From NCBI GenBank assembly GCA_021772775.1, contig JAJFLH010000034.1:62001-126000 (forward strand): 64,000 bases of DNA. The letters run 5' to 3'. Below are positions 22,100-43,779 of this stretch, piece by piece (within the stretch, counting starts at the first letter, position 1; each line of letters starts with the position of its first letter). Made by a program: the position numbers and the translations under genes. The notes below the pieces were generated by a model that was not told where the DNA came from, did not search any database, and worked only from the letters and a program-made list of their open reading frames with translations. Source of the DNA: Mariprofundus sp. GTDB taxonomy: Bacteria; Pseudomonadota; Zetaproteobacteria; Mariprofundales; Mariprofundaceae.

Positions 22100-23566
22100 T
22101 TAATCGCATAGTTCAGTGTCAGGACACCAAATAGAATATCTCGATTTTCCTGCTTGTTTGGCTTGATACATCGATTTGTCCGCAAGCTTCAGCAAAGAAT
22201 CTGCATCTTCGGCATGAGCAGGATAGAGGCTAACACCAATGCTTGCAGATACACCCGCCTGTTCATTATCAATCGGAACAGCCCGCTGAATGCACTCCAG
22301 CACTTTATCAAGCAGCGGAGGCAAACAGGATTCATTAGCCAGATCCCCAAATAGCAGCACAAATTCATCGCCGCCAATGCGAGCAACAGTATCTTCACCA
22401 CGCACCAGAGTTCCCAAACGATGGGATATCACGCACAACACCTCATCACCGGCATCATGGCCTAATGTATCATTCACCGCTTTAAAGCCATCCAGATCGA
22501 GAAAACATACCGCTAACAACTTATCAGTACGTTTGCTGTGCAATATTGATTGTTCCAGCCTGTCATTCAACAGACGGCGGTTTGGCAGACCTGTTAAAGT
22601 ATCATGATTGGCTTCCAGCTCTAAACCATGTTGGCGCTCAACCAGTTGAGATACCGATGACAACACACCTGCGTAATTATCGACTTTCCCCTCTTCACCC
22701 CGGATTGCCGATAATGTTAGCCAAGCTACTTCTCTTTCAGCACTTATCCCCTGCCCAAAAATCTCTCCTGACCAATGCCCCTGTTCACCAGCCAGTTGCC
22801 AAATATCACTGACAACATCTTGAGCAAAGAGTTGCGGTTTCAGGCTCTGGAAATGCTGGCCGATAATCTGATCATACTGGCTATCAACATAGGTGCAAAA
22901 AGCTGGATTGGCATCAATAAGCAGACCAGCAGGATCGGTTACAAAAATTGCTTCAAAGGTACTGTCGATCACATTTTTAGATAAGATGAGTTTATGTTCA
23001 ATACGCTGACGTCGGGCAGTTTCCCGCATTAGCTCAAGCGTTTGTGATGACAGCGAATCATACATTTTAAGGACTGTTTCAATAAGCGCTGTCATGGCAC
23101 CACTCATGGCGTGGCTGGCATGATCTTTTGCATGTTTCAAATCCATACCCTGCTCTATACCTAGCACAATCTGAGCCATTCGACGATCCGTATCGAGAAT
23201 ATGGAATGCAAGCCAATGTGTCAGAAATGACAACACTTTTTCACTGACCTCTTCATCGCGCAAGGTATGGCGCTCCTGCTTCACTATTTCGACTTCATCG
23301 ACAAAACTCTGATGCGTCTGTGCATGCTCAGCAGTCATCTCATCAGCAGGCAAATACTTATTCCAAAGCGCCTCTTCTGTTGTAAAATGGTAGATCGTAT
23401 AATCACTCAGTTCATCAAGCAGCTGATTAATTGCCACATCATCCAGGTTGTTCGCCAACTGATAGGCAAGCCGATTAATGATCTCCACCAGTTTTTGATG
23501 CTGCTCATCAACAACGGCTAATCCCGTCTCAAAATTCACATTCCATGGGAAAATTTCGGAAACCAT
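22100..23566 (-). CDS. diguanylate cyclase with hemerythrin and PAS sensor domains
   Basis: The N-terminal bacteriohemerythrin domain (about 1-140) has the diiron pattern: H in DEQHQKL, HFTTEE, HAQTH and a final HILDTD. A PAS domain lies at about 190-310. The GGDEF domain covers 325-480 and has an intact active site, IGGDEFVLL, with an RGED inhibitory site exactly five residues upstream, so the enzyme should make c-di-GMP and be product-inhibited. Hemerythrin-GGDEF proteins respond to oxygen or redox state of the diiron site in other bacteria. The start has a GGGAGGG ribosome site. It stands alone. Confidence 0.92.
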   Translation of the reverse strand: MVSEIFPWNVNFETGLAVVDEQHQKLVEIINRLAYQLANNLDDVAINQLLDELSDYTIYHFTTEEALWNKYLPADEMTAEHAQTHQSFVDEVEIVKQERHTLRDEEVSEKVLSFLTHWLAFHILDTDRRMAQIVLGIEQGMDLKHAKDHASHAMSGAMTALIETVLKMYDSLSSQTLELMRETARRQRIEHKLILSKNVIDSTFEAIFVTDPAGLLIDANPAFCTYVDSQYDQIIGQHFQSLKPQLFAQDVVSDIWQLAGEQGHWSGEIFGQGISAEREVAWLTLSAIRGEEGKVDNYAGVLSSVSQLVERQHGLELEANHDTLTGLPNRRLLNDRLEQSILHSKRTDKLLAVCFLDLDGFKAVNDTLGHDAGDEVLCVISHRLGTLVRGEDTVARIGGDEFVLLFGDLANESCLPPLLDKVLECIQRAVPIDNEQAGVSASIGVSLYPAHAEDADSLLKLADKSMYQAKQAGKSRYSIWCPDTELCD

Positions 23567-37433: not shown

Positions 37434-37859
37434 TCAGCGTCCTCCGAAGTCTGCGGCGTATTGATTAATCCATTCATTGGCAGATTCTTCGGCTGATAAA
37501 TATCGCCCTTCTTTGATTGCCTTCTGTCGATAGTCCTCAATATGGCACACCTGCTCCACCATACGCGCCAGAAAACGGCTCTCTTCATCGAGAAATTTAA
37601 CGCCTATTTCAAAACCTTCTCCCTTGGCCTGTCGCCAGCAAACCACACAAGCCGCCTCAAAAGGAGGATTCACATGCGGCACATTGACTCTTAAAATAGT
37701 GCCATCTTCAAACGCAACATTGGTCTGAAAGGCAACACCACCCTCACCAACATCTGACATGGATAGATACTCCAACTCTTCATCCGATTGCATAAAAACA
37801 TGAATAGGCACATCGACTGGATGGCGGATAAACTCTCTGCGTTCATCACCCATCATCAA
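37434..37859 (-). CDS. PilZ domain protein
   Basis: A 141-residue protein that is essentially one PilZ domain, the common c-di-GMP receptor. The arginine motif RREFIR is at residues 7-12 and the second motif (D/N)xSxxG appears as SDVGEGG with the Ser replaced by Gly. C-di-GMP binding is therefore likely but not certain. It overlaps holC by four bases. In this window it could read the signal made by the hemerythrin-GGDEF enzyme. Confidence 0.88.
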   Translation of the reverse strand: MMMGDERREFIRHPVDVPIHVFMQSDEELEYLSMSDVGEGGVAFQTNVAFEDGTILRVNVPHVNPPFEAACVVCWRQAKGEGFEIGVKFLDEESRFLARMVEQVCHIEDYRQKAIKEGRYLSAEESANEWINQYAADFGGR

Positions 37860-38320
37860 CTCTTCTTACCCAGATAGGTTGGCTCCAGCCCCATCTGCCT
37901 GTAGGTGCGAAAGCGTTCGCGAGCGGCCTGTTTTAGCGATTCATCCCAGCCATCGACAAAATCTACAATATGAACAAAACCCGACACATCGGGAGGAATC
38001 TCCAAACCACCATTGATCAACACTTCAGCCCGGTTATCACGCTGAATGGATGTCGCCAATAGAATCGGATGCTGGCTATTGGCTTCGACATCATCTGTGG
38101 CAATACCATGCGCAAGAAAGGATTCCGGATGAATCGTCCATAGCCTTTCATCCAGTTGAGCGGCAAAACTATTATCGGGACAGAGGATCAATACATGTGG
38201 AATTAAACGCGCACGTCGCAGTAGCAAATTACAAATGCCTTCAACCCGATCCGCTCTATCCAGTAGTTCAAAATGAACTTTTGTTTCAAGCTGCTTAGCC
38301 AAGTTTACTCTTCCATACAT
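37856..38320 (-). CDS. holC: DNA polymerase III subunit chi
   Basis: Chi joins the clamp loader to single-strand binding protein. The 154 residues show the HolC pattern: KVHFELLD near the start, RVEGICNLLLRRAR, VLILCPDNSFAAQLDERLWTIHPESFLAHG and a C-terminal FVHIVDFVDGW. It overlaps the PAP2 gene by 26 bp if started at 38320; a later start would reduce this. The overlap with the PilZ gene (four bases) is tight. Confidence 0.88.
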   Translation of the reverse strand: MYGRVNLAKQLETKVHFELLDRADRVEGICNLLLRRARLIPHVLILCPDNSFAAQLDERLWTIHPESFLAHGIATDDVEANSQHPILLATSIQRDNRAEVLINGGLEIPPDVSGFVHIVDFVDGWDESLKQAARERFRTYRQMGLEPTYLGKKS

Positions 38321-39008
38321 GCATCAAAACAAACAATGCGCCTACCGGCATAATCAGTGCCAACGATTGCGCCGTTGATGGCTGCACATGATACCCCAGC
38401 CCCAATACCGCAGCCTGTACAGCCACAATAAAACCGGGAATTTTCCAGCCCCACTGGGAATCCTGCCAGGCATCGATCGGCCAGGCTTTCGACCAGCGCC
38501 AGAACAGCCACATCGTGGTGATACCAATCAACAGACCTACAGCAACATCTATGGGGAAGTGTACCCCACCGTAGATACGACCAATCGCAGCCAATACAAA
38601 TAACGACGCGATGCTCCAGCTGCGCCAGTCTTTACATTGCCAAATCAGAAAGGCCAACAACACCATCACGCCATCAGAAGTGGAGTGACCAGATGGAAAA
38701 CTATGCGATGTAAGGCTATGGCCCAGCACATGTACATTTTCCAGTACAGCCGGTGGGCGCGGCATATCAAAGATGCGTTTCAATAGCTGTGCAAACAGAC
38801 CGGAGACAATAAATGCAGCTACAGACGCAATACCAAGGCGTAGATTAAACAACATCAGTAGCGAGCAGAGCAGCGAAATAATCAGTCCATCACCCAGACC
38901 AGTAATGGTTCCAAAGAAGATATCACCAAAGCTCGAATGAGCATCGTTAATAAGACGAAAGAGTGCATGGTTATCAGTGACGTATTGCATGGACGCAACA
39001 CTACTCAT
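38295..39008 (-). CDS. PAP2 family membrane phosphatase
   Basis: A 237-residue membrane protein with about six helices. The three phosphatase motifs are present: KRIFDMPRPP near residue 87, SFPSGHST near 107 (the PSGH motif) and RIYGGVHFPIDV near 145, giving the catalytic histidines. Relatives dephosphorylate lipid phosphates such as undecaprenyl or phosphatidylglycerol phosphate at the membrane. The exact substrate cannot be told. It follows the PilB-type gene by 37 bp. Confidence 0.9.
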   Translation of the reverse strand: MSSVASMQYVTDNHALFRLINDAHSSFGDIFFGTITGLGDGLIISLLCSLLMLFNLRLGIASVAAFIVSGLFAQLLKRIFDMPRPPAVLENVHVLGHSLTSHSFPSGHSTSDGVMVLLAFLIWQCKDWRSWSIASLFVLAAIGRIYGGVHFPIDVAVGLLIGITTMWLFWRWSKAWPIDAWQDSQWGWKIPGFIVAVQAAVLGLGYHVQPSTAQSLALIMPVGALFVLMHVWKSKLG

Positions 39009-39045: not shown

Positions 39046-41496
39046 TTATATTACCGAGTAAACAAAATCGTTGTAATCAATAACACCATTAGCAGCCAAC
39101 TCCAGCGCTGATGCTGATTTGGGTTTCATACCATTTTCCGCAGCAATACGTTGCATCTCCTGCCCCTTCGCACCATCGTGAATAGCTTGTCTGACGCGTT
39201 CATTGACGACAAGAAATTCATAGGACATGACCCGTCCGCTATAACCTGTCTTATGACAATGATCACAACCGACAGCTCTATATAGCTTCTTCGGCACATC
39301 AAAACCAAGATCTGCTACCATTGTAAAGGCAGGATCATCTTTATCCAATTCAGAGCGACATTTCAGGCAGAGTTTTTTCAATAGATTCTGGCTAATGACA
39401 CCCAGCAGAGCTGGCGCAATAAGGTAGTTAGGAATCCCCAAATCATTCAAACGGATAATTGTATCGACAGCTGAATTGGTATGCAGAGTAGAGAGCAGTA
39501 GATGCCCAGTCAGCGCCGCTTCAATACCGATCTCTGCCGTTTCCGGATCACGCATTTCACCGATCATAATAATATCCGGGTCATGCCTGAGTACATTACG
39601 CAGAATACGCGCAAAACTCATGTCGATCTTATTATTAACCTGAATCTGATTGGCATTATTGATCTCTGACTCGACCGGATCTTCGATGGTCAACACATGG
39701 GCAGGAAGATGAGATATTGATTTCAATAGTGCAAACAGGGTCGTTGATTTACCGGAACCTGTGGGGCCAGTCACCAACACTAAGCCATAGGGTTTCCTCG
39801 CCATGATAGAGAGCTGTTTCATATCCTCTTGACGCAAACCCAGCACATCCAGATCAACAGCCATCTCTTTGTTCAACACACGTAGCACCAGCGACTCACC
39901 ATAGGAGTTAGGGATGCAGGAGACACGAAATTCATATTTACGTCGGCCATCACGCAACTGCAGTTTGCCATCCTGAGGCAAACGCTGCTCGGCGATATCC
40001 ATACCACATAAAATTTTGATACGGGCAGAGATCTGCTTGCTTAGCGTCTTCTCCAGAGCATTCTCTGATAACAGCTGGCCATTAAGCCGATAAGACAAAC
40101 TAATTTTTTTAGCCTGAGGCAAAATATGAATATCGGACGCTTTTTTTCTCAAACCATTACGAATAATACGATTCACCAAACGAACAATCGGAGCATCCTC
40201 AGAAGATTGGGTGATTTGTGATTCATTCAGAGGTTCATCGGGGTCATCCCCCTCATGGTGTAAAAATTCACATGAGAGCTCTTCATCCGCCAAGTCCTCT
40301 TCGAGCAGATCAGAAATTGCACTTTTTAACTGTGAAGCTTTGACCATCACTTCATGAACTTTTTTACCGGTCTTAAAACAGATTTCATCGTAGGCCTGCA
40401 GCCCCATCGGATCGGCCAGTGCAATGGTCAATGAATGTTTATCACTATCAATGGGCATGACCTGGTACTTTTCAACCACATCCCTGCCAACTTCAGTTCC
40501 CGCCAGCGGATTGATCCTATAAGCATCCAGATCGACTGTCGGCAGACGAAATTTTTTAGCCAGTGCCGTTAATAGTTCATCTTCAGTAATAACTTGAGAA
40601 CTAAGTAAAACTTCACCAATGCGCTGGCCACGTACTTTTTGCTCATCCAGAGCAAATTTAACGTCGTCATCACCGATTAATCCAGCCTCGATTAAAATCT
40701 CACCCAAACGCATTTTTCTGCGACTCTGAATTTCCAGCATAGAGTCAATCTGCTTGGTTTTAATTTTCCCTTTTTCAACCAGAATATGGCCGAGTGGTCT
40801 ATCCTTCTTCGACTCTGACTGCTCTTCCAATGCGTTTTGCACATCGTCAACGGTCACCAACTCCTGATCAATAAGAAGATCACCGAGTTTCATGCGATTA
40901 CGGTTCTGTAAAACCAGCGCATGATCAAGATCACTCTTTTCGAGCTTACCCTGCTCTTTCAACACATCACCTAAGGAGGGCATACTCTGTGCCTGAACTT
41001 CCAAGGCATGCTGCAACTCGTTTGTGCCAATACTTTCCTGGTCGATCAATAGATCACCAAGTCGCTCCGGGTTTTCCTGATAACGGATGCCATGATGATA
41101 AAAGAAAATGCGATCATATCGCAGCGTATCGTCTCGCCCAGTAGCAAAAAAACCAGGTGTATTGGACATCGCCGGGTATGCAAACACTTCAAAACTTTCA
41201 AGATTTACAGTAATGACTTTCAACTTCTCCATATGCTGGAGTTTGGTCGGGTGCTCTACAGTTGAACCTTCAGTATGATGTAAACCGACATAGACAATAT
41301 CTTCAACATCAAACTTTCGAGAACCAGCAGTATCAGGCTGATCTTTCTCAAAGAAATGCAGCTTATTCATAATCTGCGAGAAACCAAGCATATGGCCTTC
41401 AAGCGTTTCACCACTCATAAGGTTAATCGTGACACCTTGAAAACGATGCTTTTTTTGTCCTGATGCTTGCACTGTACTTTTCACTATGGCTCTCAC
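39046..41496 (-). CDS. PilB/GspE-type assembly ATPase with six MshEN-like repeats
   Basis: An 816-residue secretion/pilus ATPase. Residues 1-135 form a beta-rich domain I do not recognise with certainty (DUF6982-like). Six repeats of the RLGxxL...ALxxQ type start at 145, 174, 203, 234, 263 and 292, then the canonical LPTVDL and a MshEN-C like region to about 400. The ATPase has Walker A GPTGSGKST, the Asp box and Walker B IIMIGEMRDPETAEI, the His box, and a zinc site (CLKC...CDHC). It powers pilin or type II secretion polymerisation. A FimV-like gene lies 26 bp upstream. The start may be GTG at 41484. Confidence 0.9.
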   Translation of the reverse strand: MRAIVKSTVQASGQKKHRFQGVTINLMSGETLEGHMLGFSQIMNKLHFFEKDQPDTAGSRKFDVEDIVYVGLHHTEGSTVEHPTKLQHMEKLKVITVNLESFEVFAYPAMSNTPGFFATGRDDTLRYDRIFFYHHGIRYQENPERLGDLLIDQESIGTNELQHALEVQAQSMPSLGDVLKEQGKLEKSDLDHALVLQNRNRMKLGDLLIDQELVTVDDVQNALEEQSESKKDRPLGHILVEKGKIKTKQIDSMLEIQSRRKMRLGEILIEAGLIGDDDVKFALDEQKVRGQRIGEVLLSSQVITEDELLTALAKKFRLPTVDLDAYRINPLAGTEVGRDVVEKYQVMPIDSDKHSLTIALADPMGLQAYDEICFKTGKKVHEVMVKASQLKSAISDLLEEDLADEELSCEFLHHEGDDPDEPLNESQITQSSEDAPIVRLVNRIIRNGLRKKASDIHILPQAKKISLSYRLNGQLLSENALEKTLSKQISARIKILCGMDIAEQRLPQDGKLQLRDGRRKYEFRVSCIPNSYGESLVLRVLNKEMAVDLDVLGLRQEDMKQLSIMARKPYGLVLVTGPTGSGKSTTLFALLKSISHLPAHVLTIEDPVESEINNANQIQVNNKIDMSFARILRNVLRHDPDIIMIGEMRDPETAEIGIEAALTGHLLLSTLHTNSAVDTIIRLNDLGIPNYLIAPALLGVISQNLLKKLCLKCRSELDKDDPAFTMVADLGFDVPKKLYRAVGCDHCHKTGYSGRVMSYEFLVVNERVRQAIHDGAKGQEMQRIAAENGMKPKSASALELAANGVIDYNDFVYSVI

Positions 41497-41522: not shown

Positions 41523-43367
41523 TTAAAAAGGGCTCTGAGACTCTTCTGTTGCAGCTGTCGAATCACCGAAACATGCATTCCACACATGCGATGGTAGAAA
41601 ATAGCAAAACCGTTCCCAACGCTGTTCATCCGATGTTTCACTCATCTGATTGATCAAATCGTTTCGTTTATCAAGACGAGCTGTTTCATGATATAGCTGT
41701 GCCCTCAATGCTGAAGCTTTGAGAGAATCAGGAAATTCTGCATCAACCTGATCAAGCGTTTTTTCTGCTTTTTCATAATCACATAGACTCAGACTCTCCT
41801 CTATCTGATTAAGTAGCGGATCCGCCTCATCAGCCACTGGCGTAGCCTCTTCTTCGGCACCAAAAGGGAGAAAGTCAGCTTGTTCTTCACTCGAAGGAGC
41901 TTCACTCAGAGGGTCTTCACTGACACTCATCGGATCCTCACTAACACTCATGGGATCTTCACTCAAAGGGTCTGGTAATTCATCAAACTGACTTTCCATC
42001 ATACCGACATCGTTCACATGGTGATCATTCAGTAGCAGATGATCTGACTCGGGCTCAAACTCGGTATCAAGTTCAGCATCGGCCTCAGACTCATCGACTA
42101 CTTTTCTCTTTTGCATCATCATCATGACAACTACGATAATCAACACCACAAGCAGGATTACAATCAATGCAAACTGCCATGTCATAAATGGATCTGCCGA
42201 TGTCGCTGAAGTGCGTTTATCGATCGCTTCAGTTCGCATTTTTATCACTTCGATATCTTTTTGCAGACTATGGATATCGTGTTTCACGCCCTGCATGGAG
42301 ACATTAAGGTTGGATACAGACTCATCAAGCGTGGCCATTTGTAGTTTGCTGGTCATCATTCCTTTATGAATGCCATCAAATTGAAGATCAATACCCTGCT
42401 TCAACTCCGTGACCGCACTATTGATCGCGTTGGCATTACCCAGCGAAATCTTTCCACTGTAGCGCAACGGTTGAGCTACCGGGGCCACAGCCGTTGCCGC
42501 AGCAGCTGGAGCAAGAGCTGAAACGCCCTTAGCCTTACTCGCTTCAACAGTAGGGTTTTGGCGGCGCAACAACTGAGAGAACTTATTCATAGCCGCATCG
42601 TTAGCATATTTCTTCACCACATCAGCACGCGGTACGGTCAGCCAAATACCTTTAATCAAATGATTGATGTTACCATCAACAAAGGCATCCGCATTGTTTT
42701 CATACAACGATAACATCACCTGTTTATTGCTAAACCGTTTATCCAAGCGCAAGCGATAGGCAATTTTGCTCAAGCTATCCCCCGCCTGGACAGGCCCATA
42801 ACGCCAGGTACGAGCCCATACATCTCCGCTGCTCTTCTCGGAGCTTGCATCAACGCCAGCTGGTGCCGTTTCTTCTTCACCAGAAAGGCTTAATGTAATA
42901 AGAGGTTCTTGCTGTTTTACTTCCTTCGATAAGTTCGCAGCATCAAGCATCAGTTGATAATGTTTAAAGTAGGTTCCACGCCCTGCCTTTTTTGCTTTCA
43001 AAACAATCGACAGCATGGGCGTCTTTATCGATCCGCTAGAGCGTAATTGAACCATAGGTTTAGCTGAATATTTACCATCAATCAGCACTTTGATCGTAGA
43101 CAAATTCGACTGCCATTGAAGGCCAAGCAGCCTGTACTCCTGCTTACTAGCTAATTCAATACGAACAGTCTTCATGTCATCTGCAGCATTGAGCAGCATA
43201 GGAATATCGGCTTTCAAGCTTTGATTCAAATGACTATCAAGTGAAAGCGCTCCGAAACCTAGCGCATCTACATGCGCTGGCATGGCCAACAGACCAGATA
43301 TCAACAACAATAGAGTACGGCAGCCGATTCCAAAGGTGAGCTTTACCCGCTCTTTCAGGCACCCCAT
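41523..43367 (-). CDS. FimV-like peptidoglycan-binding membrane protein
   Basis: About 614 residues. A signal peptide or anchor (about 17-36) precedes the FimV N-terminal domain (LGFGALSLDSHLNQSLKADIP). A LysM-like FimV segment lies near 200-255 (VQAGDSLSKIAYRL...YENN...INHLIKG). A membrane helix (about 400-422, ending in a run of Met) leads to an acidic cytoplasmic part with short tandem repeats and a final TPR-like region. Pseudomonas FimV places type IV pilus machinery at the cell pole and supports assembly. The next gene is a PilB-type ATPase. Start 43367 has AAGGG at good spacing. Confidence 0.85.
   Translation of the reverse strand: MGCLKERVKLTFGIGCRTLLLLISGLLAMPAHVDALGFGALSLDSHLNQSLKADIPMLLNAADDMKTVRIELASKQEYRLLGLQWQSNLSTIKVLIDGKYSAKPMVQLRSSGSIKTPMLSIVLKAKKAGRGTYFKHYQLMLDAANLSKEVKQQEPLITLSLSGEEETAPAGVDASSEKSSGDVWARTWRYGPVQAGDSLSKIAYRLRLDKRFSNKQVMLSLYENNADAFVDGNINHLIKGIWLTVPRADVVKKYANDAAMNKFSQLLRRQNPTVEASKAKGVSALAPAAAATAVAPVAQPLRYSGKISLGNANAINSAVTELKQGIDLQFDGIHKGMMTSKLQMATLDESVSNLNVSMQGVKHDIHSLQKDIEVIKMRTEAIDKRTSATSADPFMTWQFALIVILLVVLIIVVVMMMMQKRKVVDESEADAELDTEFEPESDHLLLNDHHVNDVGMMESQFDELPDPLSEDPMSVSEDPMSVSEDPLSEAPSSEEQADFLPFGAEEEATPVADEADPLLNQIEESLSLCDYEKAEKTLDQVDAEFPDSLKASALRAQLYHETARLDKRNDLINQMSETSDEQRWERFCYFLPSHVWNACFGDSTAATEESQSPF
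41911..41973 (-). repeat. 21-bp tandem repeat in the FimV-like gene
   Basis: Two to three near-identical 21-bp units encode the heptapeptide SVSEDPM repeated in the acidic linker after the membrane helix. In-frame change of copy number would alter linker length without breaking the protein. Confidence 0.8.
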
Positions 43368-43779
43368 CACAACCACCCTTGAACCATCAAATCATTTACC
43401 ATACTCACATCAATCTCCCCTACTTTGTTGCGTTGGTGCAAACACATCAAAGCACTCCTGCACATTCAGCAAATCCAATGCCATAATATTGTGACACATC
43501 ATCAGCGCATGCAAACATAATCAAAATCATCTGCCACTATTCAAACAGATGGTGGCACCCTATGTCACACCGTTTCGCATGGAAACAGGCATTTCAAACG
43601 CATCATTGTTTAACACCCAAAACGTGTGGCATTGAAGGTATGTCTGGATTCGTTCAGCCTGCATGCCTGAATCATCGAGCATATGAATCAATGCATCTCT
43701 TTAACTGGACAAATATCAAACGAATATCGATATGAACTGTGGAGTACCATTATTTTTAAACAACGATTAAGCTTTTGAC
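43368..43779. other. gene-free stretch between the FimV-like gene and alr
   Basis: The stretch lies between divergent genes and must hold their promoters. I find no open frame with a credible start, no terminator hairpin and no promoter that stands out. Confidence 0.6.

Follow-up and report, generated by a model that had tools for sequence, protein, structure and literature searches.

The second messenger c-di-GMP is sensed by the MshEN unit. In Vibrio cholerae MshE, the MshEN domain comprises two 24-residue motifs that are separated by a 5-residue spacer and followed by the MshEN_C subdomain (PMC5013675, PDB 5htl; statements on this and the other published systems follow the available excerpts of the papers cited). 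Both motifs contact the ligand via Arg1, Leu2, Gly3, leucines 17 and 21, and Gln24, with Gly3 and Gln24 making polar contacts (PMC5013675). Thermus thermophilus PilF contains three GSPII domains, one of which does not bind c-di-GMP, and such multi-GSPII ATPases were, as of 2024, reported only in Deinococcus-Thermus (PMC11731258). PilF repeats whole GSPII domains with N- and C-subdomains, and its GSPII-C has three motifs ahead of one C-subdomain (PMC11731258, PMC12002112). How the level of c-di-GMP controls pilus extension is poorly understood even with one MshEN pair, according to an excerpted review (PMC11656802).

The window analysed here is a whole stretch of 64,000 nucleotides from Mariprofundus sp. 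It encodes an ATPase that resembles PilF (PMC11731258, PMC12002112) in its PilB-type motor and in its several N-terminal units of the c-di-GMP type, which are unequally conserved. Unlike PilF, the three predicted motif pairs of the window protein share one C-subdomain, two modelled Sm-like barrels lie in front of them, and the protein belongs to a separate lineage. Unlike MshE, whose MshEN domain is one pair, it has three, and the last motif carries Lys where MshE has Gln61. Multi-unit MshEN ATPases are already known; what differs here is the three pairs, the single C-subdomain, and the two Sm-like barrels ahead. Among the literature matches listed, a six-motif ATPase is absent.

ATPase gene and catalytic core

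The gene and its catalytic elements are located as follows.

39046..41496, minus strand: ATPase gene, 816 aa, GTG start (ORF listing)
39079..40206, minus strand: T2SSE ATPase core, residues 431-806 (Pfam PF00437, E 4e-117)
39745..39768, minus strand: Walker A GPTGSGKS, residues 577-584
39256..39369, minus strand: tetracysteine zinc motif CLKC..CDHC, residues 710-747

The core matches PF00437 (T2SSE) with a score of 391 bits against a cut-off of 24.9, which places the protein in this superfamily. Walker A, Asp box, Walker B, His box, and tetracysteine motif are all found, and the preliminary description of a pilus-type ATPase is borne out by the profile match together with this full set. The complete set is also present in 12 of 16 relatives; of the other four, two (L049 and L051) are truncated at contig ends and two (L057 and L061) miss the strict Asp-box pattern only. 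The best full-length profile is TIGR02538 (PilB) at 508.1 bits, compared with an equivalog cut-off of 675.65, and TIGR02533 (GspE) scores 471.9 bits against 630.25. Because both scores lie below the curated cut-offs, the protein is assigned to the T2SSE / PilB-GspE superfamily and to neither subtype.

A second in-frame GTG at position 41484 of the window, corresponding to residue 5, lies four codons past the listed start and is preceded by GAGG. The alignment of the relative L046 begins at this codon, which may be the true start of the gene.

Six MshEN motifs

The MshEN region contains six motifs, designated R1–R6, and one C-subdomain.

40993..41064, minus strand: MshEN motif R1, residues 145-168, RLGDLLIDQESIGTNELQHALEVQ
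40906..40977, minus strand: MshEN motif R2, residues 174-197, Ser at position 1
40819..40890, minus strand: MshEN motif R3, residues 203-226, Lys at position 1
40726..40797, minus strand: MshEN motif R4, residues 234-257, Pro at position 1
40639..40710, minus strand: MshEN motif R5, residues 263-286, the sole unit matching the published relaxed motif
40552..40623, minus strand: MshEN motif R6, residues 292-315, Lys replacing Gln at position 24
40294..40551, minus strand: single MshEN_C subdomain, residues 316-401 (Pfam PF05157, E 3e-16)

Pfam detects one MshEN stretch in the window protein, at residues 316-401. A loose motif pattern matches at residues 145, 174, 203, 234, 263, and 292 and nowhere else, each unit being 24 residues long, whereas the same pattern matches 2000 shuffled versions of the protein 0.49 times on average and never more than 4 times. 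These are the six starts that the preliminary description had proposed. The 29-residue period it had assigned holds for four of the five steps; the step from R3 to R4 is 31 (spacers 5, 5, 7, 5, 5). Residues 145-316 show autocorrelation peaks of 0.287 at lag 29 and 0.228 at lag 58. The variation reported at the key Arg and Gly is also found: position 1 is R, S, K, P, R, and R, and position 10 is E, G, E, G, G, and Q, with a residue other than Gly in R1, R3, and R6.

A repeat HMM built from 17 rows, one of them the window's, detects six units in each of the 24 close rows scanned (L006-L029, the window's own locus among them). NCBIfam NF053729 covers one motif pair in 53 positions and has a cut-off of 38 bits. 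In the profile search that had been suggested for the repeats, it matches each of R1R2, R3R4, and R5R6, with in-phase scores of 42.9, 51.8, and 63.5 bits. The two out-of-phase pairs score 51.8 and 54.5 bits, and the five adjacent segments of the protein (42.9, 51.8, 51.8, 54.5, and 63.5 bits) all exceed the cut-off. Applied to five adjacent segments each of the window protein and L029, this profile scores every register and is therefore uninformative as a test of phase.

Predicted pairing of the motifs

The six motifs are computed to form three in-phase pairs, R1R2, R3R4, and R5R6, of which only R5R6 is joined to MshEN_C. This arrangement is favored because four lines agree: the structure models, the similarity of R1 to R3 and of R2 to R4, the variation of the R3-R4 spacer, and the four or six units of relatives.

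In an AlphaFold model, R5R6 with MshEN_C aligns to c-di-GMP-bound MshE with a Z score of 16.4 and an rmsd of 2.6 over 138 residues. In a separate model restricted to R1-R4, the R3R4 half aligns to c-di-GMP-bound PilF GSPIIB (Z 10.3, rmsd 1.3 Å, 57 residues) and to MshE (Z 10.5), and the R1R2 half matches X. citri PilB-N at Z 9.0 and PilF GSPIIA at Z 6.0; the alignment tool warns that helical-bundle Z scores of such size may mirror a common arrangement. All of the first ten MshEN-family rows are in phase; a single low row (6ejf_G, Z 4.3) lies across unit boundaries. Foldseek searches with the R1-R4 model yield E-values of 0.4 or worse, yet the top 13 ranks are all MshEN entries. The models are of middling quality (pLDDT 69.5 and 69.8, pTM 0.36 and 0.44; alignment of 17 sequences). 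Structure prediction had been set beforehand as a possible refutation of MshEN pairing; with moderate confidence, the predicted models contain the four-helix MshEN_N fold in every pair.

R1 matches R3 at 10.9 of 24 and R2 matches R4 at 10.6, compared with 9.2 for R1-R2, 8.9 for R2-R3, and 7.5 for R3-R4. The spacers were compared in 17 rows, the window's own and those of 16 named relatives from Mariprofundus or other Zetaproteobacteria, with two row pairs more than 97% alike. In all 17 they are 5, 5, variable (5 to 11), 5, and 5. Thus, length varies solely between R3 and R4. A C-subdomain after every motif array, as in PilF, is not found in the window protein; its pairs are consecutive, with 5-residue spacers except for the 7 residues between R3 and R4.

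The motifs could instead build a continuous α-solenoid, in which neighbors pair in any register and create up to five ligand clefts. All five adjacent segments exceeding the NF053729 cut-off would fit such a structure. We nevertheless regard it as most improbable, given the in-phase alignments with their one low straddler and the unit counts of relatives, which are four or six with one decayed five.

Contact residues and possible c-di-GMP binding

Work on PilF widens position 1 of the motif to R/K/L, and GSPII-C binds despite one motif starting with Pro (PMC11731258). A GSPII-A construct with Ser as the first residue of motif II had completely lost binding, and engineered GSPII-A shows that binding by an isolated N-subdomain is possible (PMC12002112). 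According to their titles, the PDB entries of PilF GSPIIB Q190E and Q218E contain bound c-di-GMP, so loss of one Gln need not abolish binding.

The strict published consensus is not found in both motifs of any pair. The extended (R/K/L) consensus is fully matched by none of the six units, and the relaxed consensus by R5 alone. Each pair contains one questionable contact: S174 in R1R2, P234 in R3R4, and K315, in place of Gln, in R5R6. The residues of R3R4 at position 1 are K and P and those at position 17 are V and I; both motifs have Gln24. Judged by the published mutants, R3R4 is the best candidate among the pairs for c-di-GMP binding. R1R2, with R and S at position 1, is doubtful as a site in the window species, although Pro takes the place of this Ser in six of 17 rows. 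R5R6, with Lys315 in place of Gln, is an uncertain site; Lys occupies position 24 of R6 in 17 of 17 six-unit rows and the equivalent position in nine of ten four-unit ORFs. The three potential sites of the preliminary description are matched by three pairs, but S174 and K315 make three an upper bound.

Gly3 and Gln24 are the only invariant positions in R1-R4, each being present in 68 of 68 cells of the 17 relatives' rows, a tally of sequences rather than of independent events. At the level of sequence, this invariance argues against R1-R4 as purely structural repeats. A structural role would mean that R1-R4 do not bind c-di-GMP and form a rigid spacer or docking arm for FimV, the PilZ protein, or a stator, with R5R6 or no pair binding. 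The loss of the position-1 Arg is consistent with such an arm: over 17 rows, this position is Ser in seven, Pro in six, His in three, and Ala in one for R2, and Pro in 12, Gln in two, Ala in two, and Ser in one for R4. In addition, the structures to which R1R2 aligns include X. citri PilB-N, taken from a PilB-PilZ complex, and GSPIIA, which does not bind; the ATPase gene is followed by a PilZ gene, and multi-domain PilF has a non-binding GSPII domain of its own (PMC11731258). Against the arm stand the invariance of two polar ligand contacts and the fact that the R3R4 residues at every contact position also occur in published binders. We consider the arm possible, if rather unlikely. The earlier suggestion that some repeats are structural only may hold, but for the added pairs R1-R4 it is opposed by the invariant Gly3 and Gln24. 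We infer instead that at least one added pair, R3R4 foremost, would bind c-di-GMP.

N-terminal domain

The preliminary description had left a further N-terminal domain unassigned. The domain is present and is modelled as two Sm-like barrels.

41272..41442, minus strand: Sm-like barrel 1, residues 19-75, five strands (1-429 model; Hfq/Sm rows with Z about 5; weak LSM profile)
41071..41235, minus strand: barrel 2, five-stranded, residues 88-142 (1-429 model)

The AlphaFold model of residues 1-429 (pLDDT 69.5, pTM 0.36) places five-stranded barrels at 20-73 and 90-141. Hfq/Sm is a common fold, and the likeness of barrel 1 to it (Z about 5) says nothing on function. The LSM profile scores 15.4 bits, below the Pfam gathering cut-off of 23.4. 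Among the 17 members, weak profile matches are to LSM in eight and to DUF6982 in two. DUF6982 also appears in four of eight relatives scanned singly, with a best score of 23.2 against a cut-off of 24.5 and nearly the whole model covered. A Pfam search of the window protein gave no DUF6982 match, a profile search of its own genome found nothing, and none of the literature matches listed names this family. Both barrels together may be remotely like DUF6982. Pfam and PDB sequence searches with N-terminal pieces of four relatives and the window protein returned chance-level matches only, and a profile search of the 17 N-terminal rows gave a best E of 0.046, to Sm proteins.

The N-terminal domain occurs in 39 of 398 sampled genomes of the phylum, in frames fitting ATPases of the same family or fragments. 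A Myxococcota locus (L063) considered as a relative of the N terminus was rejected; it holds two ORFs with ordinary MshEN regions.

Distribution and origin of the third pair

Among the genomes examined, six units occur in 21 of the 23 that belong to the window's genus and in 3 of the 11 from a neighboring genus. Other genera have the same N-terminal domain with four units. The four-motif ATPases of other Zetaproteobacteria (L030-L035, L088-L098) and of genome G078 (L084) share the N-terminal barrels, paired motifs, one MshEN_C, and the ATPase, but have two pairs instead of three and lie outside the six-unit clade. Of 19 four-unit ORFs, nine yield all four units with the repeat HMM, nine yield three, and one yields two, the remainder being read by eye; one (L092) is truncated, and L100 and L101 duplicate loci L035 and L030 and are not recounted. 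The residue table of four-unit proteins covers 10 of the 19 ORFs. Unit counts in relatives are four or six, except for a decayed five-unit paralogue (L099, G047:C28). The latter is present alongside another copy of the six-unit ATPase in its genome, and decay of R3/R4 has left it with about five units.

In a maximum likelihood tree of the C-subdomain and ATPase core, 20 six-unit rows lie on one side of a branch with support of 100/99. L099 falls within the six-unit clade, and the four-unit rows lie outside in several lineages, with the outgroups on long branches. The tree contains 20 of 24 six-unit rows (without L012, L016, L019, and L026), 17 of 19 four-unit ORFs (without the second L084 ORF and L095), and L099. 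The computed tree gives the six-unit form a single origin, as one clade beside four-unit lineages. The last two units of four-unit proteins best match R5 and R6 (13.4 and 10.0 of 24). Together with the six-unit clade, this match is most simply explained by a third pair gained once through duplication of the upstream pair. The three-pair motor is a lineage-specific elaboration of a known motor type in the iron-oxidising marine Mariprofundus lineage.

Ten phylum-sample loci with long frames were inspected. L081 and L087 encode multi-motif ATPases, L084 has the architecture of the window protein but with four units, and the other seven are different proteins with one ordinary motif region each. 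L084, from another family of the phylum, carries two neighboring four-unit barrel-MshEN ATPase paralogues, the only relatives outside the window's class in this sample.

Genomic context

The genes surrounding the ATPase gene are as follows.

41523..43376, minus strand: fimV-like gene (FimV_N, FimV_core), 26 nt upstream of the ATPase gene on the same strand
38295-39008: PAP2, between the PilZ gene and the ATPase gene
37856-38320: HolC, between the PilZ gene and the ATPase gene
37434..37859, minus strand: PilZ-domain gene, downstream of the ATPase gene on the same strand

A fimV gene lies upstream of the ATPase in 13 of 16 relatives and is not adjacent in L058, L059, and L061. About 6 kb upstream in L058 is an ORF that reads, by eye, like a prepilin peptidase. 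The order PAP2-HolC-PilZ is found downstream in 7 of 16 relatives; among the remaining downstream regions, four loci end soon after the ATPase, and others differ or are short. The 26-nt distance suggests co-transcription with fimV and work at the cell pole.

The window's own genome encodes four smaller T2SSE proteins and five PilB/GspE-like ATPases, of which one has a broken frame. The broken frame, at C25:132299-133803 (L002, L045), is interrupted before the C terminus by decay or sequencing error. Platform proteins number two only, at C3 and C25, each beside another ATPase, and a search of the contig of the window ATPase found no platform gene. The window motor would thus have to borrow a platform. 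The protein could also be a housekeeping PilB or GspE of its genome with incidental extra motifs, a role suggested by PilB TIGR02538 being the best full-length profile at 508 bits. This is very unlikely, as the scores fall below both equivalog cut-offs and the two platform genes adjoin other ATPases.

The genome has 25 GGDEF matches, which makes c-di-GMP production likely. The window itself encodes, at 22100-23566 (minus strand), a 488-aa protein that combines hemerythrin, PAS, and GGDEF domains. By its domains, this protein is likely a diguanylate cyclase that senses oxygen or iron in this iron oxidiser, and it is a possible source of c-di-GMP for the window ATPase.

Proposed mode of action

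We give about even chances to the window protein being an extension ATPase in the type IV filament family that plays an accessory role, is tuned by c-di-GMP through one to three sites per subunit, borrows its platform, and is possibly associated with the pole. Each subunit would read c-di-GMP at one to three sites of differing affinity. The response of the hexamer would be graded or cooperative and would stabilise or activate assembly. This orphan motor would borrow an inner-membrane platform, most likely PilC, and might act at the pole, perhaps docked there through the barrels.

A more elaborate version appears clearly unlikely. It posits a motor with multiple thresholds, in which each subunit has at most three MshEN sites differing in affinity and each hexamer at most 18. 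By this means, a pole-bound, FimV-linked orphan ATPase would compete for a shared PilC only when c-di-GMP exceeds set levels. The ligand would no longer be read by the ancestral R5R6, which lacks Gln at R6, but by the pairs added upstream, and the barrels would form a docking or ring-forming cap, a feature we have not seen described for pilus ATPases.

As a c-di-GMP-tuned accessory motor, the window ATPase would be a candidate for the control of attachment in iron-oxidising Zetaproteobacteria. MshEN, PilZ, and PilB were all absent from a term search of a paper on Zetaproteobacteria stalks (PMC8250860). The natural series of two and three pairs on the same core makes the benefit of an extra sensor testable by domain swaps.

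Other proteins with tandem MshEN motifs

Tandem MshEN motif pairs are also carried by L081, L087, and L005. The L081 ATPase has eight motifs, arranged twice as four motifs and a C-subdomain, and the L087 ATPase has four motifs without barrels; the repeat HMM found four units in L081 and two in L087, and the further units were read by eye. No tandem-motif precedent was found in the available excerpt of a Leptospira paper (PMC12943098). To judge from L081 and L087, tandem MshEN pairs appear to have a wider distribution than the excerpted literature suggests.

Two further proteins are encoded in the window's own genome. An NfrB-like glycosyltransferase in a 692-aa frame (L005, C24:22364-22690) contains two tandem MshEN pairs without a T2SSE core. 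On contig C29, a 124-aa protein (L074:1387-1761, minus strand) consists nearly entirely of MshEN-type motifs, and a nearby ORF looks like a histidine kinase that also carries a receiver domain. The 124-aa protein is possibly a stand-alone c-di-GMP receptor or adaptor.
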